A stretch of 33,115 nt of DNA, from the NCBI GenBank assembly GCA_025935035.1, contig JAICWB010000003.1, forward strand, positions 1 through 33,115, written 5' to 3'. Position numbers and translations under genes: made by a program. The DNA comes from Terriglobales bacterium (lineage in GTDB: Bacteria > Acidobacteriota > Terriglobia > Terriglobales > Acidobacteriaceae). Shown here piece by piece: positions 10,161 through 33,115 of this stretch (within the stretch, counting starts at the first letter, position 1; each line of letters opens with the position of its first letter). The notes under the pieces are model-generated. The model did no database searches. It was not told the DNA's origin and saw only the letters and a list, made by a program, of their open reading frames with translations.

Positions 10161-12182
10161 CTAAGGAACACGTCTCTTTTTGATAGAGCCTTGTGCGGTC
10201 AATCGGCGGCTGCGTGTGGGCCGTGGCGTGTTCAGAAAGATATCGAGACCTGAACCAGCCACTGAAACCATTTGTGGACTGTTGAATGCATCATCGGTAA
10301 CGGTGATCAAGCCATTTAAAGCTCCGAGGTGAGTAGGCTTGAGGCTGATCATACAACTCATCGCCGCCGGCAGAACCATGGGGCAGTTAGTCACCTGAAA
10401 TAAACCTTCTCCGGACAGTGAAAGGCCGGAGATGTTCAAGGGCGCATTCCCGGTATTTGTAAGCGTTACGGTGGAGTTCAGGCTAAAAGTATTTAACAAC
10501 TGGCTTCCGAAGTTGATCGACGCGCGACTGAAGGTAGCAATAGGAGCGGGTGCCCCGGACTCTTGCTGGGAAAGAACGAGCAGCGTAACGCTTTGCGGCG
10601 GGACGGACAACTGCACGACACCGTTCTGTACATTGACGTCCGCTAAAGATTCAATGGAGGCGCCGAGGCCGCTTAACTGCCAGCGCTGTGCGGTGGCGGC
10701 CGCAGGAAAGTTCGCTACATTTAAAGTGACCGGGGTGTCGCCTGCGGAATATTTGTTCAGTAGAACGATCGTCACTTTGTTGTCTGCAGTGCGTTGCGCC
10801 GCAAACGCGGCCACGTTGTCAGGGTTTTCGACTGCTGCGCTGACGCTGACATCGCCAAAAGTGGATCTTTGCCCGTCGTAATTGCGATACATCTTCATCG
10901 CGTTATAGGTAGGCTTACCTTGCACGGGAGCATTGAAGCGGGTGGCGAGGTCGAGGCCCTCGCGGCCAAAAATACCGAGGACATCAGCCTCGGCGACGGC
11001 GAAAGCAATGGTGTCATTATCAACTTCGTCATTGATATCGCCCCAGTTGTATTCAGTGATGCCGATCTTCGTGCCGGGATAGTTGTCCGCAACCCATTGC
11101 TTCATGCGCGGGATAAGCATGATGTTGGTGGCGATGAAACTGTTATCAACGTAACCCGGATCCCATAATGAGCGGGTATTAACATTAATCGGGTCATTAC
11201 CCTGCGGATAGTAGTGAACCGTGAAATAGTCGAGAAGCCGCTGGCCGTTGTGAGTGTCGGCATAGGCCTTAAATTGGCTAAGAAACCACGGAAGGTAATC
11301 GCCGACTGCATCGTGATCCACGTGGTCGTTCGCAAAGTTGTGGAGTCTCCCGTCCTGGTTGTCGAACGGACTGTAGATATAGCCGAGCCATCCGGACGCC
11401 TCGGGGCCGGCGACGAAAGCACCCGAATCCTGTGCCTTGATCATGGCGGCATAATCCAGCATGGCCGAAGTGTCTTCGTCATGGTGCGGGGCGGTGGCCA
11501 CGGCATCATGATGCGTCTCAGGCCATAGGTCGTGTTCGTTATCGAGAATGTAGTACTTGAGACCACCCGTCGCGGCGCTATGGAAAACATTAAGTGTGTG
11601 CGTGACCCAATCCTGTTGGTTGGCAAGCGAGTTGGGGACGAAAGCGATATTGGGATCGGCGCCATTTATGGGTGTGCGGTCGGGCGCGAGACCATCGCCG
11701 CAATCCGGATCAGAGTCATCGCCAAACTGGAACTGATCAGGAAAAGAGCTTCGAGGGTAACTGCATGGCAGCGGCTGCTGTATGCCGGACTTCGCGATCC
11801 AAGACAGCATGGGAATGGTGACCATCGGCTCTGATGATGCGGCTTTCGTGCTGGTAATGAAATCATCAGTGCGGCGCGCCGGAATCGTTCCGGCATCGTC
11901 GGTGATGCTTTCAAAGAAGAAATCATTGCCGCGGTTGTCAGAATTCAGTTGCCAGTTGTAGGTGCTGGCGCGGTTGCCGCCGTAACGGTTAATCGGCGCG
12001 TTTAGATCTTCAAGGATGGCGGCTGTGTTTGCTGACTCAAAAAGATTCACTCCGTAGATCAGCGGGCTAATATCGTGGCGACCGGCGTGGACGTCAACGT
12101 TGACGGTGGTGGCGGGGTTTTGCGCGAACGCGCACGCGCCGAGCGACAAAACCAGCAGTTGCTTCAGCCAGAAACGAACCAT
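10161..12182 (-). CDS. Secreted glycoside hydrolase family 44-like protein with C-terminal choice-of-anchor (ASH-like) domain
   Basis: GH44-like INRYGGNRASTYNWQLNSDNRGNDFFFES, YILDNEHDLWPETHHD (candidate acid/base Glu), KIGITEYNWG (candidate nucleophile); C-terminal ASINFGSQLLNTFSLNSTVTLTNTGNAPLNISGLSLSG. The ORF track starts at 12215, but MVRFWLKQLLVLSLGACAFAQ at 12182 is the signal-peptide start. Confidence 0.85.
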   Translation of the reverse strand: MVRFWLKQLLVLSLGACAFAQNPATTVNVDVHAGRHDISPLIYGVNLFESANTAAILEDLNAPINRYGGNRASTYNWQLNSDNRGNDFFFESITDDAGTIPARRTDDFITSTKAASSEPMVTIPMLSWIAKSGIQQPLPCSYPRSSFPDQFQFGDDSDPDCGDGLAPDRTPINGADPNIAFVPNSLANQQDWVTHTLNVFHSAATGGLKYYILDNEHDLWPETHHDAVATAPHHDEDTSAMLDYAAMIKAQDSGAFVAGPEASGWLGYIYSPFDNQDGRLHNFANDHVDHDAVGDYLPWFLSQFKAYADTHNGQRLLDYFTVHYYPQGNDPINVNTRSLWDPGYVDNSFIATNIMLIPRMKQWVADNYPGTKIGITEYNWGDINDEVDNDTIAFAVAEADVLGIFGREGLDLATRFNAPVQGKPTYNAMKMYRNYDGQRSTFGDVSVSAAVENPDNVAAFAAQRTADNKVTIVLLNKYSAGDTPVTLNVANFPAAATAQRWQLSGLGASIESLADVNVQNGVVQLSVPPQSVTLLVLSQQESGAPAPIATFSRASINFGSQLLNTFSLNSTVTLTNTGNAPLNISGLSLSGEGLFQVTNCPMVLPAAMSCMISLKPTHLGALNGLITVTDDAFNSPQMVSVAGSGLDIFLNTPRPTRSRRLTAQGSIKKRRVP

Positions 12183-12194
12183 TAGATACCCCAA

Positions 12195-12233
12195 AGCCAC
12201 CTGCACTTTTATCATGCTTCAGTGCAGGTGGCT
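12195..12233. promoter_or_regulatory. Perfect 13-bp inverted repeat (potential RNA hairpin, 13-nt loop)
   Basis: AGCCACCTGCACT (12195-12207) / AGTGCAGGTGGCT (12221-12233), in the leader of the GH44-like gene. Confidence 0.85.
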
Positions 12234-18192: not shown

Positions 18193-18999
18193 ATGGCTCG
18201 GGCGCTATCCGCGTTGTTGATCGCTATCATTGCCGCAACGGCGTATTTCTTTTCGCGCACTTGGCTGCCGGCGCTAGCGACTTCTTCTGGTGGCGCGATC
18301 GATCGTCAACTCACCCTGAACTTCATTCTTCTTGGCGTGGTCTTCTGCGCGACACAGATCGCGCTGGGACTGTTTGTTTGGAAGTATCGAGAGCGGGCTG
18401 ATCCGCAGGTGGTGACGAATACCGCGCAGCCCGATGCGCGCGTGGAATTGACCTGGCTGACGATCGCGGCTGCGCTTTTCTTGGGACTGAACATTGCTGG
18501 CGCGGCGATGCAATCACGTGTTCCGCAAGTCTCCGCGGAAGAGAAGCCTGTGACAGTGGAAGTGACGGGCGTGCAGTTTCGCTGGTACTTCCGGCAGCCG
18601 GGTCCCGATGGACGATTTGGGCAAACCAAGCCAAAACTGGTGGATGCGTCCGAAGGAAATCCGCTCGGAATAGACCGAAGCGATCCGGCTTCGGCGGATG
18701 ATGTGGTTTCAGCGGAGTTAGTGGTTCCAGCCGGTAAGCCGATAGAAGTCAGATTGCACGCGCAAGACGTGGTCCATAGTTTTTTTGTTCCAGCTTTGCG
18801 GATAAAGCAGGATGCGGTGCCCGGCCAGGACACTCTTGTCCATCTTCCCTCAGCTGAACCCGGCACTTATGACATCGCTTGTGCTCAACTTTGCGGTATG
18901 GGCCACTATCAGATGAACGCGAAACTTAAAGTAGTGCCTGAAGCAGAGTACCGGGCGTGGCTGGAGCAACAATCGGCAGCGCAGGTGGCGCGACGCTGA
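18193..18999 (+). CDS. coxB: Cytochrome c oxidase subunit II (CuA domain)
   Basis: 268 aa; three hydrophobic N-terminal segments, VTGVQFRWYFRQPGPDGRFG, VVHSFFVPALRIKQDAVPG, CuA-type CAQLCGMGHYQM. Confidence 0.93.
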   Translation: MARALSALLIAIIAATAYFFSRTWLPALATSSGGAIDRQLTLNFILLGVVFCATQIALGLFVWKYRERADPQVVTNTAQPDARVELTWLTIAAALFLGLNIAGAAMQSRVPQVSAEEKPVTVEVTGVQFRWYFRQPGPDGRFGQTKPKLVDASEGNPLGIDRSDPASADDVVSAELVVPAGKPIEVRLHAQDVVHSFFVPALRIKQDAVPGQDTLVHLPSAEPGTYDIACAQLCGMGHYQMNAKLKVVPEAEYRAWLEQQSAAQVARR

Positions 19000-20756
19000 T
19001 GGGGACCGCAAATAATTCCGCGCCCCGTGGTGACCACCCACCCAATGCAGCGAAGAGCTTGCCGCGTTGGATGGGGCACGAATCTTCGTTTTCTTTCAGC
19101 GCGCATCATCGCGTGATAGCACGGCAATATTTTCTTCTGTCACTCGCAGCGGTGCTGATCGGCATTGTGCTGTCGCTGCTCATGCGGCTGCATATTGTGT
19201 GGCCGGAGCTGCGGATCCCCTTCTTTGGACAGATCAAGCCGGAGCAATACCTTGCCTATATGACCATGCACGGCACACTGATGGTGTTCTTTGTGCTGAG
19301 CGTGGCGCCCCAGAATGCGTTCGGCAATCTGGTGTTGCCGGAACAGATCGGCGCGCGGGCCATGGCTTTTCCGCGGTTGAACATGTTTTCGTTTTGGACA
19401 ACTTTACTGGCCTTCATGGTGATGGTGAGTGCGTTGTTCGTGGCGGGTGGTGGGTCGATGTCCGGGTGGACGCAGTATCCGCCGCTGAGTGCGATCACCT
19501 CTGCAGGTTCTGGACAGGGGCGAGGTACAGACTTATGGATAGTCAGTATCGCGATCTTCTGCGTGGCTTCTTTAATGAGCGCCGTGAATTTCATCACCAC
19601 GGTATTGCGCGGGCGGGTGGAAGGGATGAGCCTGATGCGCATGCCGCTGACGGTCTGGTCATGGTTTGTTACGGCGATGCTGACTCTGCTCTCGTTCAGC
19701 GTTTTACTCGCGGCGGCGTTGCTGCTTTTTTCTGACCGGCATTGGGGGACCAGTTTTTATCTTCCCGCAGGACTGGTTGTGAACGGAGCGGCCGTGGCTG
19801 GCCATTCAGGGGGTTCGCCCCTATTGTGGCAACACTTGTTCTGGTTCTTCGGGCATCCGGAGGTTTACATCGCGATATTGCCGGGCATGGGGGTTACCTC
19901 TCACATGTTGAGTACGTTCTCGCGCAAGCCAGTGTATGGATATCGGGGCATGGTTTATTCCTTGCTGGCCATCGGCGTGTTGGGTTTCATGGTCTGGGGA
20001 CATCACATGTTCGTGGCGGGAATCAGTCCTTACGCGGTGCTGGCGTTCTCGACCTTGACCATGGTCATCGCAGTGCCATCGTCAGTGAAAGTGATCAATT
20101 GGCTGGGAACGTTGCGCGGCGGACGGATCCGTTTCTCTGTGCCGCTACTTTTTTCCGTGGGGTTTGTCTCGTTGTTCATCACCGGCGGATTGTCCGGCCC
20201 GATACTTGCGCAGCCCGCGGTGGACATGTATTTACATGACACGTACTTTGTAGTGGCGCACTTTCACATGATCATGGGGATGGCGGCGGTGTTCGCCATC
20301 TTTGCGGCCACGTACTTCTGGTTCCCGCTACTGTTCCCCGATCGCATGATGAATGAGACACTGGGACGCGCGCACTTCTGGCTGACCTTCATCGGCGCGT
20401 ATGCCACGTTCATGCCGATGCACTTTCTCGGGCTTGCGGGGAATCCAAGGCAGTATTCGCAGATCGCCGGCTCAGCGAAGTATCTGCAGAAGCTGCTGCC
20501 GGTGCACATGTTCATCACCATTTCGGCATTCGTGCTGGCCGCGGCTCAATTCATCTTTATATATAACCTGATGCATTCGGCGGCGCGCGGCAAGTTCAGT
20601 GGGGCGAATCCGTGGGAGGCGACCACGCTCGAATGGGAAATAGACCACGGACAAAAGCTGACCGTGCATCATGACCCATATGTATTCGGCCCGCGTGAAG
20701 ATTCGCGGCGCGACTACACCATGCAATCTGAACCGCCGTATACTTATAAAAGTTAG
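18999..20756 (+). CDS. coxA: Cytochrome c oxidase subunit I (haem-copper oxidase)
   Basis: QHLFWFFGHPEVYIAILPG, VWGHHMFVAG, VPSSVKVINWL, HDTYFVVAHFHMIMG. Start at 18999 (TGATG overlap with coxB stop) preferred over ORF-track 18957. Confidence 0.96.
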   Translation: MGTANNSAPRGDHPPNAAKSLPRWMGHESSFSFSAHHRVIARQYFLLSLAAVLIGIVLSLLMRLHIVWPELRIPFFGQIKPEQYLAYMTMHGTLMVFFVLSVAPQNAFGNLVLPEQIGARAMAFPRLNMFSFWTTLLAFMVMVSALFVAGGGSMSGWTQYPPLSAITSAGSGQGRGTDLWIVSIAIFCVASLMSAVNFITTVLRGRVEGMSLMRMPLTVWSWFVTAMLTLLSFSVLLAAALLLFSDRHWGTSFYLPAGLVVNGAAVAGHSGGSPLLWQHLFWFFGHPEVYIAILPGMGVTSHMLSTFSRKPVYGYRGMVYSLLAIGVLGFMVWGHHMFVAGISPYAVLAFSTLTMVIAVPSSVKVINWLGTLRGGRIRFSVPLLFSVGFVSLFITGGLSGPILAQPAVDMYLHDTYFVVAHFHMIMGMAAVFAIFAATYFWFPLLFPDRMMNETLGRAHFWLTFIGAYATFMPMHFLGLAGNPRQYSQIAGSAKYLQKLLPVHMFITISAFVLAAAQFIFIYNLMHSAARGKFSGANPWEATTLEWEIDHGQKLTVHHDPYVFGPREDSRRDYTMQSEPPYTYKS

Positions 20757-20771
20757 GCGCGGAGAATCCTT

Positions 20772-21524
20772 ATGCCCAAGCCTGCCGTTCTTCCTCCACA
20801 CACTACGCACGCGGAACCTAAGATCGGCGGCCGCGGGCCCAAGCCGCCGGCGTCGGTAGGGTTGGGAGGCGATGATTGGAAAAATAATCCGCCGGGACGG
20901 CGCGGTCCGCGGGAGCGCCTGAAGCGCTTTCGGGTGGCGCTGGGCTTGGTGCTGATATCGGTATTTGTTTTGTTCATCGGCCTGACCAGCGCCTACGTGG
21001 TGCGCCAAGGTGGCGGAACGCTGGATACGACCACGGGAGTCTTTACCCGGGATTGGAAACCAATCGCGGTGCCGCAGATCCTGTGGCTCAACACGCTTTT
21101 GCTGCTCTTAAGCAGCGCCACGATCGAATTTGCGCGGCGGCAGGTCTTTCGTGAACCCATGGTCACTGAAGAATGGTTGGGATTGGGCACGCCGACCCGA
21201 CGCGCTTCCCTGCCTTGGCTGGGATTGACGCTGGTACTCGGCTTTGGATTTCTGGTGGGACAGTTCGTGGCGTGGCAGCAATTGAACGCCCAGGGAATCT
21301 TCATGGCCACGAATCCGAGCAGTTCATTCTTCTTCATCCTGACCGGCGCGCACGCGCTACACTTGTTGGGCGGGATCATTGTGTTGACTTGGGCTGCGTT
21401 GGCGAGTGTGTTGTCGCGTCCATTGGAATCACGGCAGATCGCCACCGATTGCGGCGCTTGGTATTGGCACGCCATGGGCGTACTGTGGCTCTACATATTC
21501 GCGTTGCTTCTCTTTGTGAAATGA
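20772..21524 (+). CDS. coxC: Cytochrome c oxidase subunit III
   Basis: 250 aa; [55 protein letters not shown]. Confidence 0.93.
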   Translation: MPKPAVLPPHTTHAEPKIGGRGPKPPASVGLGGDDWKNNPPGRRGPRERLKRFRVALGLVLISVFVLFIGLTSAYVVRQGGGTLDTTTGVFTRDWKPIAVPQILWLNTLLLLLSSATIEFARRQVFREPMVTEEWLGLGTPTRRASLPWLGLTLVLGFGFLVGQFVAWQQLNAQGIFMATNPSSSFFFILTGAHALHLLGGIIVLTWAALASVLSRPLESRQIATDCGAWYWHAMGVLWLYIFALLLFVK

Positions 21525-21724: not shown

Positions 21725-21866
21725 CCTACGCGCCAGATGGTGCCGGCCATTGGCATAGCGCCCTTCGGACGCAAATCTGATCCGCAGTAGCGCGATATAA
21801 TAGAGGATTCCACACTCGCATTTTTGCTCTCTATGGCGGTGCTGAGCGTGGATGGGTCCTTTATTC

Positions 21867-24854
21867 ATGTCCATCGATAGCATTGTCGTCCGCGGTGCGC
21901 GGGTCCATAACTTAAAGAACATTGATTTTGAAATACCGCACAATGCGCTGACGGTGGTCACGGGCGTTTCCGGTTCAGGCAAGTCTTCGCTCGCATTTGA
22001 CACGATCTACGCCGAAGGACAACGGCGCTATGTGGAATCGCTGTCAGCGTATGCGCGGCAGTTCCTGGAACGAATCGAGAAACCGGACGTTGATCTGATC
22101 GATGGCATCGCGCCTGCGATCGCAATCCGGCAAAAAAATACGACGCGTAATCCGCGGTCCACGGTTGCGACTTCTACAGAGATTTACGACTACCTGCGGC
22201 TGTTGTTCGCGCGCATTGGCACCACGTATTGTCTGCAGTGCGGCGCTGAGGTCAAGAGCGACACCGTGGATGAGGTCGCTGCCGCAGTCCTCGCTCTGCC
22301 GACAGAGACCCGACTGAATGTTTTGTTTCCGGTGAAAGTGAAGGCGCCGACGGCGGAAGCATCCACGGCAGCAAAGCCGAAACGGGCGAGCAAGAAAGCG
22401 CTGAAGGCCGCGGAAGAGGCGCAAGCCGCAGCCACGATGGACGCGATGAAGCTGCGCTTGTTCGATCTGCGGAAACGCGGGTTCACGCGGCTTTATCAGA
22501 ACGGCGCTATTTACGAATTCTCCACACCTGAGTCTTTGCTGGAGATTGATTTCGCGCAGCCATTGTTCGGGTTGGTCGATCGGCTGGTTGTCTCGGCGGA
22601 TGTTCGTGCGCGGGTAGTGGACGCGACGGAGATCGCTTACCGCGAATCAGGCGAGGTGGTCTTTGAAACGGTGCCACGTGAAGAAGGCGCGAAGCGGCAG
22701 CAGTTGCGGTTCTCGCAACGCTTTGAATGCAAGACCTGTTTGATCCGCTACGAGCATCCGGAACCGCGGTTATTTTCGTTCAACAACCCTTTTGGTGCGT
22801 GCCCGCGATGCCAGGGGTTTGGGAACACTATTGATTTCGATCTCGACCTCGTCATTCCGGATAAATCGAAATCGCTTAATGCGGGCGCGATCGAACCTTG
22901 GACGAAACCGAAATACCGGTCATTGCTCACCGATTTCCGCAAGACCGCGCGCGCGCACGGCATTCCGATGGACGTGCCATGGGAAGAGATGGACGAAGAC
23001 CATCGCGAGATCGTGTTGGAGGGCGACCGCGAGACGAAGTTCCCAGGCATTAAGGGCTTCTTCGCTTATCTTGAGCGAAAAAAATACAAGCTGCACGTGC
23101 GGGTTTTCCTGAGCAGGTATCGAGGATATGCGCTGTGCCCCGATTGCCGCGGGCAAAGGTTGCGCGCGGAGGCGCGGACCGTGCGCGTTGCGGGAAAGAA
23201 CATCTGCGAGGTCTCCTCCCTGACGGTCGAAGCGGCCGCGACTTTTTTTGGGGAACTGGAATTGAAGCCGCACCAGTTGGAGATCGCGGACAAAATATTG
23301 CTGGAGATCCGCGACCGCTTGAAGTTCTTGAACAATGTTGGATTGGAATATCTGACGCTCGACCGACTGGCTTCAACACTTAGCGGCGGCGAAGCGCAAC
23401 GCATTCAGCTAGCGGCATCGCTGGCATCGCGGTTGGTGGGCGCATTGTATGTGCTGGACGAACCCTCGATTGGATTGCATTCGCGCGACACCAAGCGGCT
23501 GGTGGACATCCTCGAAGACCTGCGCGATCTGGGAAACACGATACTCGTGGTGGAGCATGATCCTGAAGTGATGGTGTCCGCAGACCGCATTTTGGACCTG
23601 GGCCCCGGAGCCGGCGAGCACGGCGGACGCGTGATGGCGCACGGAACATTTGACGAGATCAAGAAGCTGCCAACGTCTTTGACAGGAAGATATCTTTCGC
23701 AAGACTTGCGGATACAGATGCCACCGGCGCGCCGTAAGCCGGGGCCGCAAAAATTGAAACTGATCGGGGCGCGAGCGCACAACTTGAAGCGGGTGAATGT
23801 GGAGATTCCACTGGGTCTCTTGGTCGCGATCACGGGTGTCAGTGGTTCGGGGAAATCGACGCTGGTGCACGATGTGCTTTACAAGTCGCTGTCTTCGGCG
23901 CTGGGAGTGAGTGCCGGCGGGAATCTTGCCGGGGTGCTGGAACGGCTGGACGGCGCGCAGTATCTGAATGACGTTGTGCTGGTAGACCAGTCGCCTATTG
24001 GGCGTACGCCGCGGTCGAATCCAGTCACCTATATCAAAGCTTTTGACATCATCCGCGAGACGTTTGCCTCGACGCCGGAAGCGCAGAAAAAAGGATTCGG
24101 CGCGGGGCACTTCTCATTCAACATTCCCGGCGGACGCTGCGAGAACTGTTCCGGTGACGGAACGGTGATCGTGGAGATGCAGTTCCTGGCAGACGTAGAA
24201 CTTCTCTGTGAAGAATGCAAAGGCACGCGGTTCAAGCCGGCGGTACTGGATATCAAGTACCGCGGCAAGAACATTCATGAGGTTCTGAACCTTACGGTGA
24301 AAGAGGGACTGCAATTTTTCTCGGCCGTGCCAAAGCTGGTGGAAAAGATCCGCGTGCTGGAAGAAGTCGGGCTGGGATATCTGCGTTTGGGACAATCCGC
24401 AACGACCCTGAGCGGAGGCGAGGCGCAACGCATGAAGCTGGCGGCGCACCTGCAGCCGCGTAGGGAATTCACTGCTGCGGTCGCAAGCGGGAATGGCGAC
24501 GATCCGGAGCGCGGCAAGGCCAAGCGCGGAAATCGGGCTCTGTACATTTTCGATGAGCCAACGACCGGCCTACACTTCGACGACATCAGCAAACTTCTGT
24601 TCGCCTTCCGGCGGTTGCTGGACACAGGCGCATCGGTTATCGTCATCGAACACAACCTGGATGTGATCAAGACCGCAGACTGGGTCATCGACCTGGGACC
24701 TGAAGGCGGCGCGCGCGGCGGCGAGATCATGGACGCGGGCACGCCGGAAGATGTGGCCAAGAACAAAAAATCACATACTGGACAGTGGCTTGCGCGCATC
24801 TTAAGTAAAAACGGGTACTCTCAACCGAATGGCCGGAGACAGAAAGCCAAATAG
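21867..24854 (+). CDS. uvrA: Excinuclease ABC subunit A
   Basis: [105 protein letters not shown] track starts at 21852; MSIDS at 21867 is the likelier start. Confidence 0.97.
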
Positions 24855-28038: not shown

Positions 28039-28986
28039 TCAGGCGGCCACGGTATTCGCCCGCGACTCGGCCAGTTCATTCGCGCAGACGCTCACGCGGT
28101 AAAGCGGCACTGAATGATTTGCCATGCGGCGTTTGTACGGTTGATCTCCGGTCATGAGGTCGCAGTCTAGACCGGATGAAAGCGATTCCCGCATCACCAG
28201 ATTCAACAGAGTACTGCCGGGAGAATGCTTGGCCCACGAGCGATCAAAGTACGTTGTGTAGAAGCGGCGCCACTGTTTGTCACGGAAGGTGACCAGCGCG
28301 GCAATGAGCGTTCCGCCGGATTCCAGCGTAAATATCTCACAGTCCTCACCGGCGCTTTGCGTCATGGAGAGCAGCATAAAAATCCGCGTTGGATCACGAA
28401 ATAGGCTGCCCGGTTCTCCGGCTTTCAATGTATAAACGTGCTTGAGAACCTGCGTGTCTCTGCCGAGATATTGCTCGCGCGTGACGCCGAGCCGCGACAG
28501 CCTTTTGAAGTTCACTTCCAGGTGCGGGTGACTTTGTGGTGAGTCTTTGGCATACGCACAGGGCGCGCTCGTGAACGGCAGGAGCGGCAAGCCGCACCAG
28601 ACAGTTGCATCTTCGCCGACGCGCAACGAGTGGAAACCGAAGCCCAGCGCATACTCCGCCGCGAAGTTCACCACTACTTCCCATGCACGCTCCACTAGAA
28701 TCGGGTCGCCCGCGCGCAGAATGTCGCGGTAATCAAAAAGCTCTTCCCCGAGGAGAGAGATTCTTTTCTGCTGGTTATCAACACACGCCGGAATGATCGC
28801 AACGCCGGAATCACTTTCAGCCATGACGACAAACGGGGATTGTCTGGCGGCGAAGGTTCGCGCGGCCAAATGATTCCACTCAAAGCTCTGAAAGATCGAA
28901 TGGTTCGGATTGCGAGCCAGTATCTCCCACCGAGGACGTAGCGCGTTCATCTCTTCCGCTGTGCGGGCAATAGCTAATCTGCTCAC
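28039..28986 (-). CDS. GNAT/BioF2-like (CelD-type) acyltransferase domain protein
   Basis: 315 aa; RPRWEILARNPNHSIFQSFEWNHLAARTF..., LESGGTLIAALVTFRDKQWRRFYTTYFDRSWAKHSPGSTLLNLVMRESL. Confidence 0.8.
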   Translation of the reverse strand: MSRLAIARTAEEMNALRPRWEILARNPNHSIFQSFEWNHLAARTFAARQSPFVVMAESDSGVAIIPACVDNQQKRISLLGEELFDYRDILRAGDPILVERAWEVVVNFAAEYALGFGFHSLRVGEDATVWCGLPLLPFTSAPCAYAKDSPQSHPHLEVNFKRLSRLGVTREQYLGRDTQVLKHVYTLKAGEPGSLFRDPTRIFMLLSMTQSAGEDCEIFTLESGGTLIAALVTFRDKQWRRFYTTYFDRSWAKHSPGSTLLNLVMRESLSSGLDCDLMTGDQPYKRRMANHSVPLYRVSVCANELAESRANTVAA

Positions 28987-29085
28987 TTGCGATTAGAGGC
29001 AAAAGCAGGCTCTCTGGATGGCGCTCGGTCCCAAAGTCAGAGCCGGCGTTTTGACCGGATGTGCCGCGGGCAATTAAAATGGATA

Positions 29086-29108
29086 TTGAAATTGAATTTC
29101 ATTTTCAA
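29086..29108. promoter_or_regulatory. Candidate Fur box
   Basis: TTGAAATTGAATTTCATTTTCAA; contains the perfect 7-1-7 palindrome TGAAATT-G-AATTTCA (29087-29101) with a second, imperfect overlapping half-site set; 20 bp upstream of the FTR1-family start codon. Confidence 0.75.
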
Positions 29109-29127
29109 TTAGGAATCTTCCTTTTAG

Positions 29128-30381
29128 ATGCTGGAAGCATTGGTCATAACTCTGCGCGAAGGCGTAGAAGCTGCGCTGATCGTCGGAATCACGCTGGCTT
29201 ACCTGAATAAGACGGGTCGAACCGGCATGCGGAAGACGGTATATATAGGGCTCATCTCCGCCTTTGTGGCAAGTATTGCCGTGGCTTTTGGAATATCCAA
29301 GACCAGTTTCAATCCTGACTTATTCGAAGGCTGGATCATGCTGGTGGCCGCGTTCTTCGTTGTGACCATGGTGTGGTTCATGGCGAAAGCGGCCAAGTCA
29401 ATGAAGGGCGACATCGAGCGCAAAGTGGGCGGCCTGGCTGAGAATGGCTCGCGTGTGGGGCTATTTCTATTCATTTTTCTGATGGTGCTGCGCGAAGGTG
29501 TGGAGACCGTTCTCATTCTCTCTGCCGTCAGCCTCACCACCACAGAATTGCTGAGTTTCATTGGCACCCTGCTGGGTGTCTTTCTCTCGATTCTGTTTGG
29601 AGTGATGTTTGTGCGCGGCAGCGTGCGCATCAACCTGGGGAAGTTTTTCAAGGTCACTACCGTCATCTTGATTTTCGTCGCATTCCAGTTGCTCATCTCG
29701 GGTTTGCATGAGCTCTCAGAGACCGGCGTCATCCCTTCCAGCAAACGTCAGATGGCGATAATCGGGCCCATCGTGCGCAATGACATTTTCTTCTTCGTGA
29801 CGATGTTGGCATTGACTGCACTCATGGTGCTTTTTGAGTCGAAGCGGCGGGCGCCGGAAGCTTCAGCGGTAACGGAATCGCCCGCTGAGCAGCGCAAGAA
29901 AGCCTGGAGCGCGCGCAAAGAAAAGTTCTGGACGACTTCCGTTTATGTGAGTTCATTCGTCTTTATCATGCTGGTGACGGCGCAATTCATTTACGCGAAG
30001 AGCAGCGCTTCCCTTTCGGAAGCGATTCCGGTGACCTTTAATGAGGGGAAGGTTTCGGTAGCCGTAGACGGGATGCAGCCGGGGGATTTGCGTCGCTACT
30101 CCGCTACGATGAACGGCAAACCAGTTCGCTTCCTCATCTATAAAAAGCCGAACGGCAAATTAGTGACCGTGATGGACGCATGCGAGATCTGCGGCGGCAT
30201 CGGTTACTACAACGGGACGCAAGGCCTTACCTGCAAGAACTGTAACGCTCCCGTCAACGGACAGACTGTAGGCGAAGGCGGCGGGTGCAATCCGATTCCG
30301 CTGACTTCTAGCATTGACGGCTCGACGGTGACCGTTTCTGAGGCTGACGTCGCGCAAAGCGCCGGAAAGATCAAGGAATAG
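29128..30381 (+). CDS. FTR1-family iron permease fused to C-terminal DUF2318-like (Cys-rich, Fe-S-like) domain
   Basis: 417 aa; two REGVE motifs (ITLREGVEAALIVG, MVLREGVETVLIL) in a polytopic membrane domain; C-terminus MDACEICGGIGYYNGTQGLTCKNCNAPVNGQTVGEGGGCNPIPL. Confidence 0.92.
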   Translation: MLEALVITLREGVEAALIVGITLAYLNKTGRTGMRKTVYIGLISAFVASIAVAFGISKTSFNPDLFEGWIMLVAAFFVVTMVWFMAKAAKSMKGDIERKVGGLAENGSRVGLFLFIFLMVLREGVETVLILSAVSLTTTELLSFIGTLLGVFLSILFGVMFVRGSVRINLGKFFKVTTVILIFVAFQLLISGLHELSETGVIPSSKRQMAIIGPIVRNDIFFFVTMLALTALMVLFESKRRAPEASAVTESPAEQRKKAWSARKEKFWTTSVYVSSFVFIMLVTAQFIYAKSSASLSEAIPVTFNEGKVSVAVDGMQPGDLRRYSATMNGKPVRFLIYKKPNGKLVTVMDACEICGGIGYYNGTQGLTCKNCNAPVNGQTVGEGGGCNPIPLTSSIDGSTVTVSEADVAQSAGKIKE

Positions 30382-30389
30382 CCTGCCCG

Positions 30390-31652
30390 ATGTTTCTTAC
30401 GCTCCTCTATCAATCGTTCATTCGGCAACGCCGCCGGAAGTTGCTGGCGGGCCTGGCCATCCTGCTGGGAATGACGGTGACCACCGCAATGATCTCCGTG
30501 GGCGTGGATGTGGGTGACAAGATGAACCAGGAGATCCGCAGTTACGGCGCGAATATTCTGGTTTATCCCCAAGCGGACACGCTCGATGTGAACGTGGGCG
30601 GCGTGCAGATGAAGCCGGCAAGCGATGGCGCTTATCTCAAGGAATCTGATCTTGTGCAGATCAAGAGCATTTTTTGGGGACACAACATCCTCGGCTACTC
30701 GCCGATGCTTTCGGTGAACGTGAAAGTGGGCGGCGTGGGATCGCCTGTCGAGATGATCGGAACGTATTTTGCGAAGGCCATTCCACTAGAGCAGGAGACG
30801 TTTGTGACGGGTGTGACGAAGACGCATCCATGGTGGAAGGTGGAGGGTGCGTGGCCGGGGGACGACAGCAACGCCGTGCTTGTGGGACAGAAGTTGGCGG
30901 CACATCTGACTGCGCACGCGGGAGACAATCTGTACATCGCGGGCAAAGAGACCAAGGTCGCGGGAATCCTGACGACGGGCGACAAGGAAGACGATGCCAT
31001 CGTCGCTCCGCTCGCAATGGTGCAGAAGATAGCCGGCCTTCCAAATGATGTGCGTCGCGTGTATGTGAGTGCGCTCACGAAGCCGGAAGATGACTTCGCG
31101 CGGCGGGATCCGGCGTCGATGTCGCCCGCGGTGCTGGAGAAATGGTCCTGCTCGCCGTACGCGAACTCGATCGCCTATCAAATCCAGGGTGCGATACCGG
31201 GTTCGCGCGCAGAGCAAGTGCGCAAGGTGGCGCAGAACGAAGGCGTTTTGCTCTCACACATTGCCGGATTGATGTGGCTGGTGACCTTGGCGGCGCTCGG
31301 CGCTGCAGCGCTCGCGGTCTCCGCTTCCATGGCAACGACAGTGTTCGAGCGGCGTAGAGAGATCGGATTAATGAAGTCGTTGGGCGCGAATAATGCGGCG
31401 ATTGTGACTCTCTTCGTGTCTGAGGGTTCGATACTGGCGATCGTCGGCGGGCTGTTGGGATTCGGGCTGGGGTTGATGATGGCGCAGCGGATGTCGAAGG
31501 CTGTCTTCAATGAGCCGCTCACCGTGCAGCCTGCGTTGTTGTGGGTCATTCTTTTTGCCGCGCTGGTGGTTACGCTCCTCGGCAGCTTGGCTTCGATACG
31601 CCGAGCGATGCGGATCGACTCCGCGATCGTCTTGCGTGGGGACGGAGCCTGA
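30390..31652 (+). CDS. ABC transporter permease, FtsX/MacB type (first of pair)
   Basis: 420 aa; N-terminal TM, periplasmic domain, three C-terminal TMs, VFERRREIGLMKSLGANNAAIVTLFVSEGSILAIVGGLLGFGLG. Confidence 0.92.
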   Translation: MFLTLLYQSFIRQRRRKLLAGLAILLGMTVTTAMISVGVDVGDKMNQEIRSYGANILVYPQADTLDVNVGGVQMKPASDGAYLKESDLVQIKSIFWGHNILGYSPMLSVNVKVGGVGSPVEMIGTYFAKAIPLEQETFVTGVTKTHPWWKVEGAWPGDDSNAVLVGQKLAAHLTAHAGDNLYIAGKETKVAGILTTGDKEDDAIVAPLAMVQKIAGLPNDVRRVYVSALTKPEDDFARRDPASMSPAVLEKWSCSPYANSIAYQIQGAIPGSRAEQVRKVAQNEGVLLSHIAGLMWLVTLAALGAAALAVSASMATTVFERRREIGLMKSLGANNAAIVTLFVSEGSILAIVGGLLGFGLGLMMAQRMSKAVFNEPLTVQPALLWVILFAALVVTLLGSLASIRRAMRIDSAIVLRGDGA

Positions 31653-32755
31653 TGCCGCTTGCACCTTCGAAAATGTTTTTCCGGTTGCTGCTGCGCGCGG
31701 CCACAGTGCGTCGCGGGCGGACGCTGACTGCGCTGCTCGCAATGGCGGTGGCCGCGACGCTGGCTACGGCATTGTTAAGCATTTACGGCGATGTAAGCGG
31801 AAAGCTAGGCGGCGATTTTAAGAAGTTCGGCGCGAACGTGATAGTCAGCGCACCGGAGGGAATGAGTGCCGCGCAGATCGCCGAGCTTGAACGAACCGCC
31901 GGCACAAGTGTGACGGGGCTTCCCTCTGCGTTTGCTGTTGCCAAGACGGCTTCCGGCAAGCCGGTAGTCGTAGTGGGAACGGATTTTATAGCGGCGCAAA
32001 AAATGGATTCGTTCTGGTCCGTAACGAAATGGCCCAGCGCTGCAGGGGAGGCCCTTATCGGTTCGCGCGCGGCAGGCGTCTTTTCCGCCGAAGCGCGGCC
32101 GAGCTTGGAGTTCAATGGCAAGCAGTATGAGGTGAAGCAAAAGTATTCGCTACATACCGGTGGCGATGAAGACAGTCGTATCTATATCTCACTCGGTGAT
32201 TTCGAAAAATGGACAGGATTGCCGCCGACGGTACTCGAGCTGGCGATACCCGGTTCGGCGGACGAGATCGGCACGGTGTTACAGAAGATGCGGGCACAGC
32301 TTCCACAAGGAACGACTGCACAGCCGGTTCGCCAGATCGTCGAAGCGCAAGCGAAGGTGATGGATAAGACGCGATTCATTCTGCTCCTCTCGGCCATCGC
32401 GATCACGCTGACGGTTGCATTATGCGTGCTGGCCACGTTGACTGCTTCTGTTCTGGAGCGCAGGAAAGATTATGCCGTCATGAAAGCGCTGGGTTCGTCA
32501 CAGGGCGCGGTAAATGCCATCTTCATCGGCGAAACACTTTCCCTGGCGATACTGGGTTCGATCTTTGGTTTCGCGGCCGGGTGTGCTCTGGCGGAGTGGA
32601 TAGGGCACACAAACTTTCATGCCGCCATTGTGCCGAACATCGGAGTGTTCCCACCTGTCTTGGCGGGCTGCGTCTTAGTGGCGCTGGTCAGCGCAGTAAT
32701 TCCTCTCACGCTGTTGCAAAAGACCGAACCCGCAGCCATGCTTAAGGGAGAGTAG
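31652..32755 (+). CDS. ABC transporter permease, FtsX/MacB type (second of pair)
   Basis: VLERRKDYAVMKALGSSQGAVNAIFIGETLSLAILGSIFGFAAG. TGATG overlap with preceding stop places the start at 31652 rather than ORF-track 31541. Confidence 0.92.
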   Translation: MPLAPSKMFFRLLLRAATVRRGRTLTALLAMAVAATLATALLSIYGDVSGKLGGDFKKFGANVIVSAPEGMSAAQIAELERTAGTSVTGLPSAFAVAKTASGKPVVVVGTDFIAAQKMDSFWSVTKWPSAAGEALIGSRAAGVFSAEARPSLEFNGKQYEVKQKYSLHTGGDEDSRIYISLGDFEKWTGLPPTVLELAIPGSADEIGTVLQKMRAQLPQGTTAQPVRQIVEAQAKVMDKTRFILLLSAIAITLTVALCVLATLTASVLERRKDYAVMKALGSSQGAVNAIFIGETLSLAILGSIFGFAAGCALAEWIGHTNFHAAIVPNIGVFPPVLAGCVLVALVSAVIPLTLLQKTEPAAMLKGE

Positions 32756-32764
32756 TCTTCGCGA

Positions 32765-33115
32765 ATGTCGATTGAAATAAAAAACGTGACCAAGAGTTAT
32801 CCTGCGCGGGAGAACAGCGACTCCGGCCGCTTGCTTGCGCTGGATGATGTCTCGCTGTCCGTCGCGAAGGGCGAATGGCTCTCCATCATGGGCCCTTCGG
32901 GCTCGGGGAAATCGACGCTGGTGAATTTGATCGGGTGTCTCGACCGCCAGGACAAGGGCGATTTGCTGATCGATGGGCAGAACCTGAAATCGCTGTCGGG
33001 AACCGAGCTGAATCGTTTTCGCGCGGAGAAGATAGGACTGATCTTCCAGCAGTTCCATCTGATCCCTTACCTCACCGCGGTTGAGAATGTCATGTTGGCG
33101 CAGTACTTCCACAGC
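32765..33115 (+). CDS. ABC transporter ATP-binding protein (LolD/MacB-like), truncated by window end
   Basis: Hand translation from ATG 32765: [117 protein letters not shown]; Walker A GPSGSGKST and Q-loop. Confidence 0.94.
   Translation, partial: MSIEIKNVTKSYPARENSDSGRLLALDDVSLSVAKGEWLSIMGPSGSGKSTLVNLIGCLDRQDKGDLLIDGQNLKSLSGTELNRFRAEKIGLIFQQFHLIPYLTAVENVMLAQYFHS

Follow-up and report, generated by a model that had tools for sequence, protein, structure and literature searches.

What does the FtsX-type ATP-binding cassette (ABC) transporter contribute to the Fet iron-uptake systems of bacteria, and why should its ATPase carry the fold of an iron sensor? The function of this transporter is an acknowledged open question: Campylobacter jejuni needs each of fetM, fetP and fetA-D to grow normally, with no substrate known for the ABC part (PMC10783030). 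The second part of the question is raised by a compact iron-uptake locus on contig JAICWB010000003.1 (assembly GCA_025935035.1) of a Terriglobales bacterium that is described as a soil bacterium. The whole stretch of DNA analysed, referred to here as the window, is the entire contig of 33,115 nucleotides, and its 3' end falls inside the ATPase gene. With slightly better than even confidence, and arguing from sequence, structural modelling and analogy, we interpret the locus as a Fet system without P19, in which the ABC ATPase would be braked post-translationally by cytosolic Fe2+. What the analysis itself establishes is the anatomy of the locus, the homology and conservation of its parts, the loss of P19, the thioredoxins and the YHS domain, the presence of a DtxR-type module with its metal ligands, and an unrecognisable DNA-binding domain.

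The locus and its Fet counterparts

The first gene (29128..30381, forward strand) encodes an FTR1-FtrD fusion of 417 amino acids, in which a FetM permease and the DUF2318 domain of FetA are joined in one chain. The FTR1 profile (PF03239) covers residues 1-199 with an expect value (E) of 2.3e-37, and the FtrD-like/DUF2318 profile (PF10080) covers residues 318-412 (E 1.5e-25), within the region of about residues 300-417 in which a preliminary description of this DNA had expected it. The FTR1 part contains the REGVE motif twice, at residues 10 and 122, and four cysteines of the fusion form the pairs CEIC (at 352) and CKNC (at 369), with a fifth, in GGCNP, at 387. Profiles and motifs agree with the earlier description of an FTR1-like permease ending in a CxxC...CxxC...GGCNP domain. 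The spacing of these cysteines, CxxC-x13-CxxC-x14-C, agrees with the pattern in the literature on FetA of C. jejuni (PMC6083913) and falls within the FetA pattern CxxC-x13-CxxC-x14/15-C. The fusion is matched across almost its full length in 33 of the 61 genomes in the set of relatives, and a sequence search finds no solved structure homologous to the chain.

The next two genes encode FtsX/MacB-type permeases, which are homologues of FetB (30390..31652, forward strand; PF02687, PF12704) and FetC (31652..32755, forward strand; PF02687). The start of the second permease, ATG at 31652, overlaps the stop of the first, and the start at 31541 in the list of open reading frames is a mechanical long start. 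MacB_PCD matches both proteins, in the second case below the Pfam cut-off, and the two are paralogues with 24% identity (E 4e-22). Against the proteins encoded by the E. coli plasmid cluster, the first permease is 36% identical to FetB (E 6e-85) and the second 30% identical to FetC (E 1e-44). An ABC ATPase homologous to FetD follows at 32765..33115 on the forward strand (PF00005), of which the N-terminal 117 amino acids are visible before the contig ends. The tightly spaced arrangement of two paralogous FtsX-type permeases and an ATPase, already recognised in the preliminary description, is borne out by the FtsX profiles and by the paralogy.

Set beside the fet cluster of an E. coli plasmid, the FTR1 part corresponds to FetM and the DUF2318 part to FetA, and the counterparts of FetB, FetC and FetD follow in the same relative order. 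The systems available for comparison are fetMP-fetABCDEF of C. jejuni and fetMP-fls of Salmonella and E. coli plasmids (PMC10783030, PMC6083913, PMC7285068). Like these clusters, the locus has FTR1, a DUF2318 domain in which the cysteines are equally spaced, a pair of FtsX-type permeases and an ABC ATPase in the same relative order, with a Fur-type box a short way upstream. Unlike them, it has FTR1 and DUF2318 in one chain and a DtxR-type module on the ATPase, and it is without FetP/P19, the thioredoxins FetE and FetF, and the YHS domain. As each part is homologous to a Fet protein, the earlier view of a rearranged ftr1-p19 system with FTR1 and DUF2318 fused holds good, and it is near certain that the locus belongs to the Fet iron-uptake systems.

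The missing components were sought widely. A profile search for P19/FetP (PF10634) finds none in the host's own genome and none in 120 genomes of the family; across the phylum the protein is absent from 295 of 297 genomes and present in 2. There is likewise no tblastn match to P19 in the fused loci. A P19 gene that is merely distant or displaced is ruled out by the profile searches of genome, family and phylum together with tblastn, and the absence of P19 that had been noted for the visible part extends to the locus and to the family. The thioredoxins FetE and FetF have no tblastn match in the locus or in the compact loci of relatives, and the YHS domain, a part of FetA in E. coli, has no Pfam match in the fused protein. 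Since P19 is not found, the locus is filed as a Fet variant and not as a canonical fetMP system. With permease and DUF2318 fused, P19 and thioredoxins gone and a sensor on the ATPase, the system appears to be cut down to its core. In one acidobacterium (G150, locus L182) the cluster is canonical: FetM, FetP, FetA, FetB and FetC are encoded separately, the ATPase is a bare one of 240 amino acids, and the FetP is 50% identical to that of E. coli. Compact and canonical forms therefore both exist in the phylum.

Two further identities were considered. The permease chain is not placed with the EfeU-type permease of EfeUOB: it scores 160 bits with the NCBIfam EfeU equivalog, for which the cut-off is 255, and EfeO and EfeB were not searched for elsewhere in the genome. 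The N-terminal membrane part of E. coli FetA was considered as a degenerate FTR1 and rejected, as Pfam finds no FTR1 in it and the profile alignment is convincing at the DUF2318 end only. Short FtrD-like proteins that have no FTR1 part are encoded in three family members (G019:C19:159128-159559, G033:C71:100790-101254 and G031:C10:1950059-1950460), two of which are without the FTR1-FtrD chain.

A DtxR-type module on the ATPase

The remainder of the ATPase is encoded at the end of another contig of the same genome, C95 (L064 8936-9949, minus strand), which was found by searching with an ATPase from the same genus. The end of the window's contig and the end of C95 share 141 identical bases. The join is supported because genomes of the same genus carry the gene unbroken, in locus L032 and in genome G003, where contig C166 has an open frame of 417 amino acids. 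The joined protein of 408 amino acids consists of an ABC ATPase followed by a C-terminal DtxR-type module. Over residues 1-219 it shares 57% identity with FetD of the E. coli plasmid (E 7e-90), a protein of 231 amino acids, and the part encoded on C95 matches PF02742 (E 2e-27). The preliminary description had suggested looking beyond position 33115 for P19 and thioredoxin genes; neither is found, and it is the ATPase that is completed on C95. The earlier reading of the locus stands, and the module lay outside the window, beyond what that description could see. The presence of a DtxR-type module on the ATPase changes the likeliest account of how the system is regulated.

PF02742 is the metal-binding and dimerisation domain of the DtxR/IdeR repressors, and it is recognised in the fused proteins with E values of about 1e-25 to 1e-29. 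A profile built from an alignment of the module has the IdeR and DtxR structures as its top matches (E 8e-18). A fold model of the module, with a predicted local distance difference test score (pLDDT) of 88, has IdeR/DtxR as its best structural match (E 1.5e-8), with template modelling scores of about 0.77-0.81 against two-domain targets. IdeR binds metal at two sites, with the ligands His79, Glu83, His98, Met10, Cys102, Glu105 and His106, together with two residues in the SH3-like domain (PMC4689551). The equivalents of these were read in 24 fused copies with a legible motif, the ligand list being taken from PMC4689551 and PMC10317159. Every one of the 24 retains those of His79, Glu83, Cys102, Glu105 and His106, and that of His98 is mostly Glu. 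At position 102, Cys is the iron-type residue and Glu is found in MntR proteins (PMC10317159); the MntR-like paralogues of related genomes do carry Glu there.

The DNA-binding half of a repressor is not discernible. No match to PF01325 is found in the fused proteins scanned, whether at E <= 0.1 or at E <= 1, whereas the same domain is detected in MntR-like paralogues of related genomes (E 2e-11 and 3e-9). The locus is therefore classed as a carrier of the domain and not with the DtxR regulators of transcription. In the module's model, helix 2 of the helix-turn-helix is almost lost. Where a winged helix would have its wing, the proteins of the window's family have a loop in which H, HxHK, N and CH are conserved (HxHK...NxCH). 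A further motif, C-x4-HPxxCPHGxPIPxGxCC, is present in nearly all copies of the module. Thus the module is like the DtxR/IdeR repressors in its dimerisation and metal domain, its fold and its Cys102/Glu105/His106 and His79/Glu83 equivalents, and unlike them in being fused to an ABC ATPase, in its unrecognisable DNA-binding domain, in having no SH3 or FeoA domain, and in its extra Cys/His motifs. In three genomes, G035 (one contig, 100% complete), G015 and that of the host (G000), the fused copy is the sole PF02742 protein. A DtxR-ABC fusion on plasmids was considered and rejected, the 25 best plasmid matches of the module being annotated as ordinary regulators or unannotated.

The nearest separate relatives of the module are the DtxR-FeoA proteins of Acidobacteriota, the genes for which lie directly beside feoB. 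They share with it the signature HRLAE...ACxFEH...CxFLGHPxxCPHGxPIPxGxCC and differ in being encoded by a separate gene, in having a FeoA domain and in adjoining a GTPase importer. The FeoA domain was identified by Pfam, and the feoB neighbours were recognised by inspection of the G-domain sequence. In a tree, the module and the DtxR-FeoA proteins fall on one well-supported branch apart from the MntR-like proteins; this tree does not decide which form is the older or how many times the fusion took place. In six loci of other Acidobacteriota (L167, L169, L174, L175, L178 and L183), DtxR-FeoA lies beside feoB and its DNA-binding domain is weak or unrecognisable by Pfam.

Conservation of the gene order

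Among the 20 loci taken from relatives, 19 can be assessed, and in 17 of these an ABC-DtxR protein is encoded by the fourth gene, in the order FTR1-FtrD, FtsX, FtsX, ABC-DtxR. The relatives of the module confirmed in a GTDB-based collection number 497, and the best 80 of these, all from acidobacterial metagenome-assembled genomes by their titles, were used for the figures on loci. ATPase and module are in one frame in 77 of these 80 loci, and a contig end interrupts each of the remaining three; the FTR1-FtrD chain is upstream on the same strand in 59. The identical order is found in other acidobacterial families (L161-L166, L168 and L170), where the ATPase-DtxR proteins are shorter, mostly about 355-367 amino acids, and overall it is preserved across dozens of genera. 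The comparison of gene order across Acidobacteriota that the preliminary description had proposed thus shows the ABC genes to be conserved with FTR1.

At its 3' side, the operon is followed by a convergent gene and a TonB-like gene, and then by ileS and lspA; it therefore consists of four genes. In relatives, two of these downstream genes, encoding proteins of approximately 950 and 170 amino acids, were considered as a receptor and its partner replacing P19 and dismissed, as inspection of the sequences identifies the products as isoleucyl-tRNA synthetase and signal peptidase II. In the host's own genome, as in several relatives, the TonB-like gene lies convergently just downstream of the operon (L064 6693-7724), and a link to iron uptake is possible.

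Possible roles of the module

Two groups of known ABC proteins suggest how such a system might work. Type VII (FtsX-type) ABC complexes are described as relaying ATP-driven movement to the periplasm and not as conducting substrates across the membrane (PMC12646458). In MetN and ModC, C-terminal regulatory domains bind the transported substrate and halt the ATPase cycle (PMC10710835). MetN, with its C2 domain, and ModC are thus trans-inhibited ATPases that likewise have a C-terminal sensing domain. They differ in belonging to methionine and molybdate importers and in having other folds, whereas an FtsX-type ABC and an iron-sensor fold are combined here, and the likeness is one of domain layout only.

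In the mechanism that we favour, the FTR1 part would move iron across the inner membrane, and the fused periplasmic DUF2318 domain would handle iron or electrons adjacent to it. The FtsX-type ABC would not itself be an iron importer, and would turn cytosolic ATP hydrolysis into periplasmic movement, or work, on the FTR1-FtrD chain. It may well act on the DUF2318 domain, because type VII ABCs act on the periplasm and this domain is tied to the permease. When iron is plentiful, the DtxR-type module is predicted to bind cytosolic Fe2+ and to stop the ATPase, in a trans-inhibition like that of MetN and ModC. By this analogy, inhibition by Fe2+ is the most likely role of the module, because there is the MetN/ModC precedent and because a metal-dependent dimerising module sits on a protein that works as a dimer. 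Uptake would then be under double control, by Fur on transcription and by the module on the protein.

Several points weigh against a brake of this kind. In the window's own case, the fusion depends on the join of two contigs by a 141-bp overlap. Ligand conservation is not established for the equivalents of Met10 or of the SH3-domain residues, which leaves metal and affinity unfixed. The full-length model of the ATPase-DtxR protein is poor (pLDDT 64) and was not used for the arrangement of module and ATPase. The module is not indispensable either, because one relative (L047, genome G016) has a bare ATPase of 231 amino acids without it, and another (L049, genome G041) has FTR1-FtrD and both permeases with no adjoining ATPase gene. 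Finally, the evidence for the explanation is computational throughout.

Other roles have to be weighed against the same observations. The module might govern how much of the complex is present or how it assembles, for instance through metal-dependent stability towards FtsH, and leave the ATPase cycle alone; FeoC shields FeoB from FtsH-mediated degradation (PMC10710835), and relatives of the module are encoded beside feoB. We consider this unlikely, as a module fused directly to the ATPase is more suggestive of a role in the nucleotide cycle. It could alternatively be a membrane-tethered repressor, the iron-bound, ATPase-attached winged helix of which represses the operon at its own palindrome. 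A palindromic site is indeed present upstream of the operon, the module keeps the DtxR/IdeR fold including a helix resembling the recognition helix, and certain genomes have no other DtxR-type protein. This role is nonetheless quite improbable: PF01325 is unrecognisable in every fused protein tested and is found in MntR-like paralogues, helix 2 of the helix-turn-helix is essentially gone, the wing has become a His/Cys loop, and the palindrome is judged to be Fur-like, not DtxR-like, with a Fur gene present in the genome.

The additional conserved Cys and His residues, in the HxHK...NxCH loop of the window's family and in the C-x4-HPxxCPHGxPIPxGxCC motif of nearly all copies, would suit an iron acceptor that takes Fe2+ from the permease at the cytosolic side as a chaperone and does not act as a switch. 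The ligands that are kept are nevertheless those of a dimerising switch, and related sensors of the same fold have no known transport role, so that an acceptor seems slightly less probable again than a tethered repressor. Least credible by far is that the FtsX-type ABC is an unrelated exporter of the MacB/LolCDE type lying by chance downstream of FTR1. Generic FtsX/MacB profiles do score well, with the curated lolCE/MacB models matching only far below cut-off, yet the genes are homologues of FetB, FetC and FetD in matching order, an iron sensor is attached to the ATPase, and the gene order kept in dozens of genera already contradicts a chance neighbourhood.

A brake on the Fet ATPase may have a parallel in ferrous iron import, as the DtxR-FeoA proteins may be post-translational regulators of FeoB. 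We suggest tentatively, as an idea rather more apt to fail than to hold, that a single DtxR-type module, no longer able to bind DNA, serves Acidobacteriota as a transplantable iron brake for two different importers driven by nucleoside triphosphates, fused in the Fet ABC ATPase and through DtxR-FeoA in FeoB. No pertinent paper on DtxR-ABC or FTR1-DUF2318 fusions was found in the literature searched, the coverage of which excludes most subscription journals, and as far as searched the fusion of an iron sensor to an ATPase is undescribed. This natural fusion offers a direct handle on the role of the FtsX-type ABC in Fet systems. If the proposed brake is real, iron would join the short list of substrates that directly switch off an ABC ATPase, and a repressor fold would have been reused as a transporter regulator. 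To our knowledge, it would be the first ABC ATPase gated by cytosolic iron.

Transcriptional control and genomic surroundings

Upstream of the operon lies a perfect 7-1-7 palindrome, TGAAATTGAATTTCA, at 29087..29101 (given without strand), which is a candidate Fur box. The preliminary description had reported this palindrome with a start one base earlier, at 29086. Dinucleotide shuffling of the 120 bp upstream yields an equally good palindrome with a p of about 0.003. A candidate promoter-like element, TTGACC-N17-TTAAAA, can be read directly 5' of it (29051..29079, forward strand). Fur-type AT-rich boxes occur at the equivalent site, 5' of the FTR1 gene, in most of 20 relatives, and many of these agree with the Fur consensus of 19 bp at 13-15 positions; several relatives also have TTGACN elements with a TATAAT- or TATCCT-like -10 upstream of the box. 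A Fur-family gene is present in the host's own genome (G000:C313). Four loci (L038, L039, L040 and L048) have a palindrome of the TGCAACT-N-AGTTGCA type 5' of the FTR1 gene in place of the TGAAA-type Fur box, which is perhaps a lineage switch in Fur recognition.

Divergent from the operon is a GNAT-type (Acetyltransf_6) gene (28039-28986, minus strand), a position kept in several relatives. Elsewhere, the window encodes a glycoside hydrolase family 44 protein (10161-12215, minus strand), cytochrome oxidase subunits I and III (18957-21524, forward strand) and a UvrA-like ATPase (21852-24854, forward strand).

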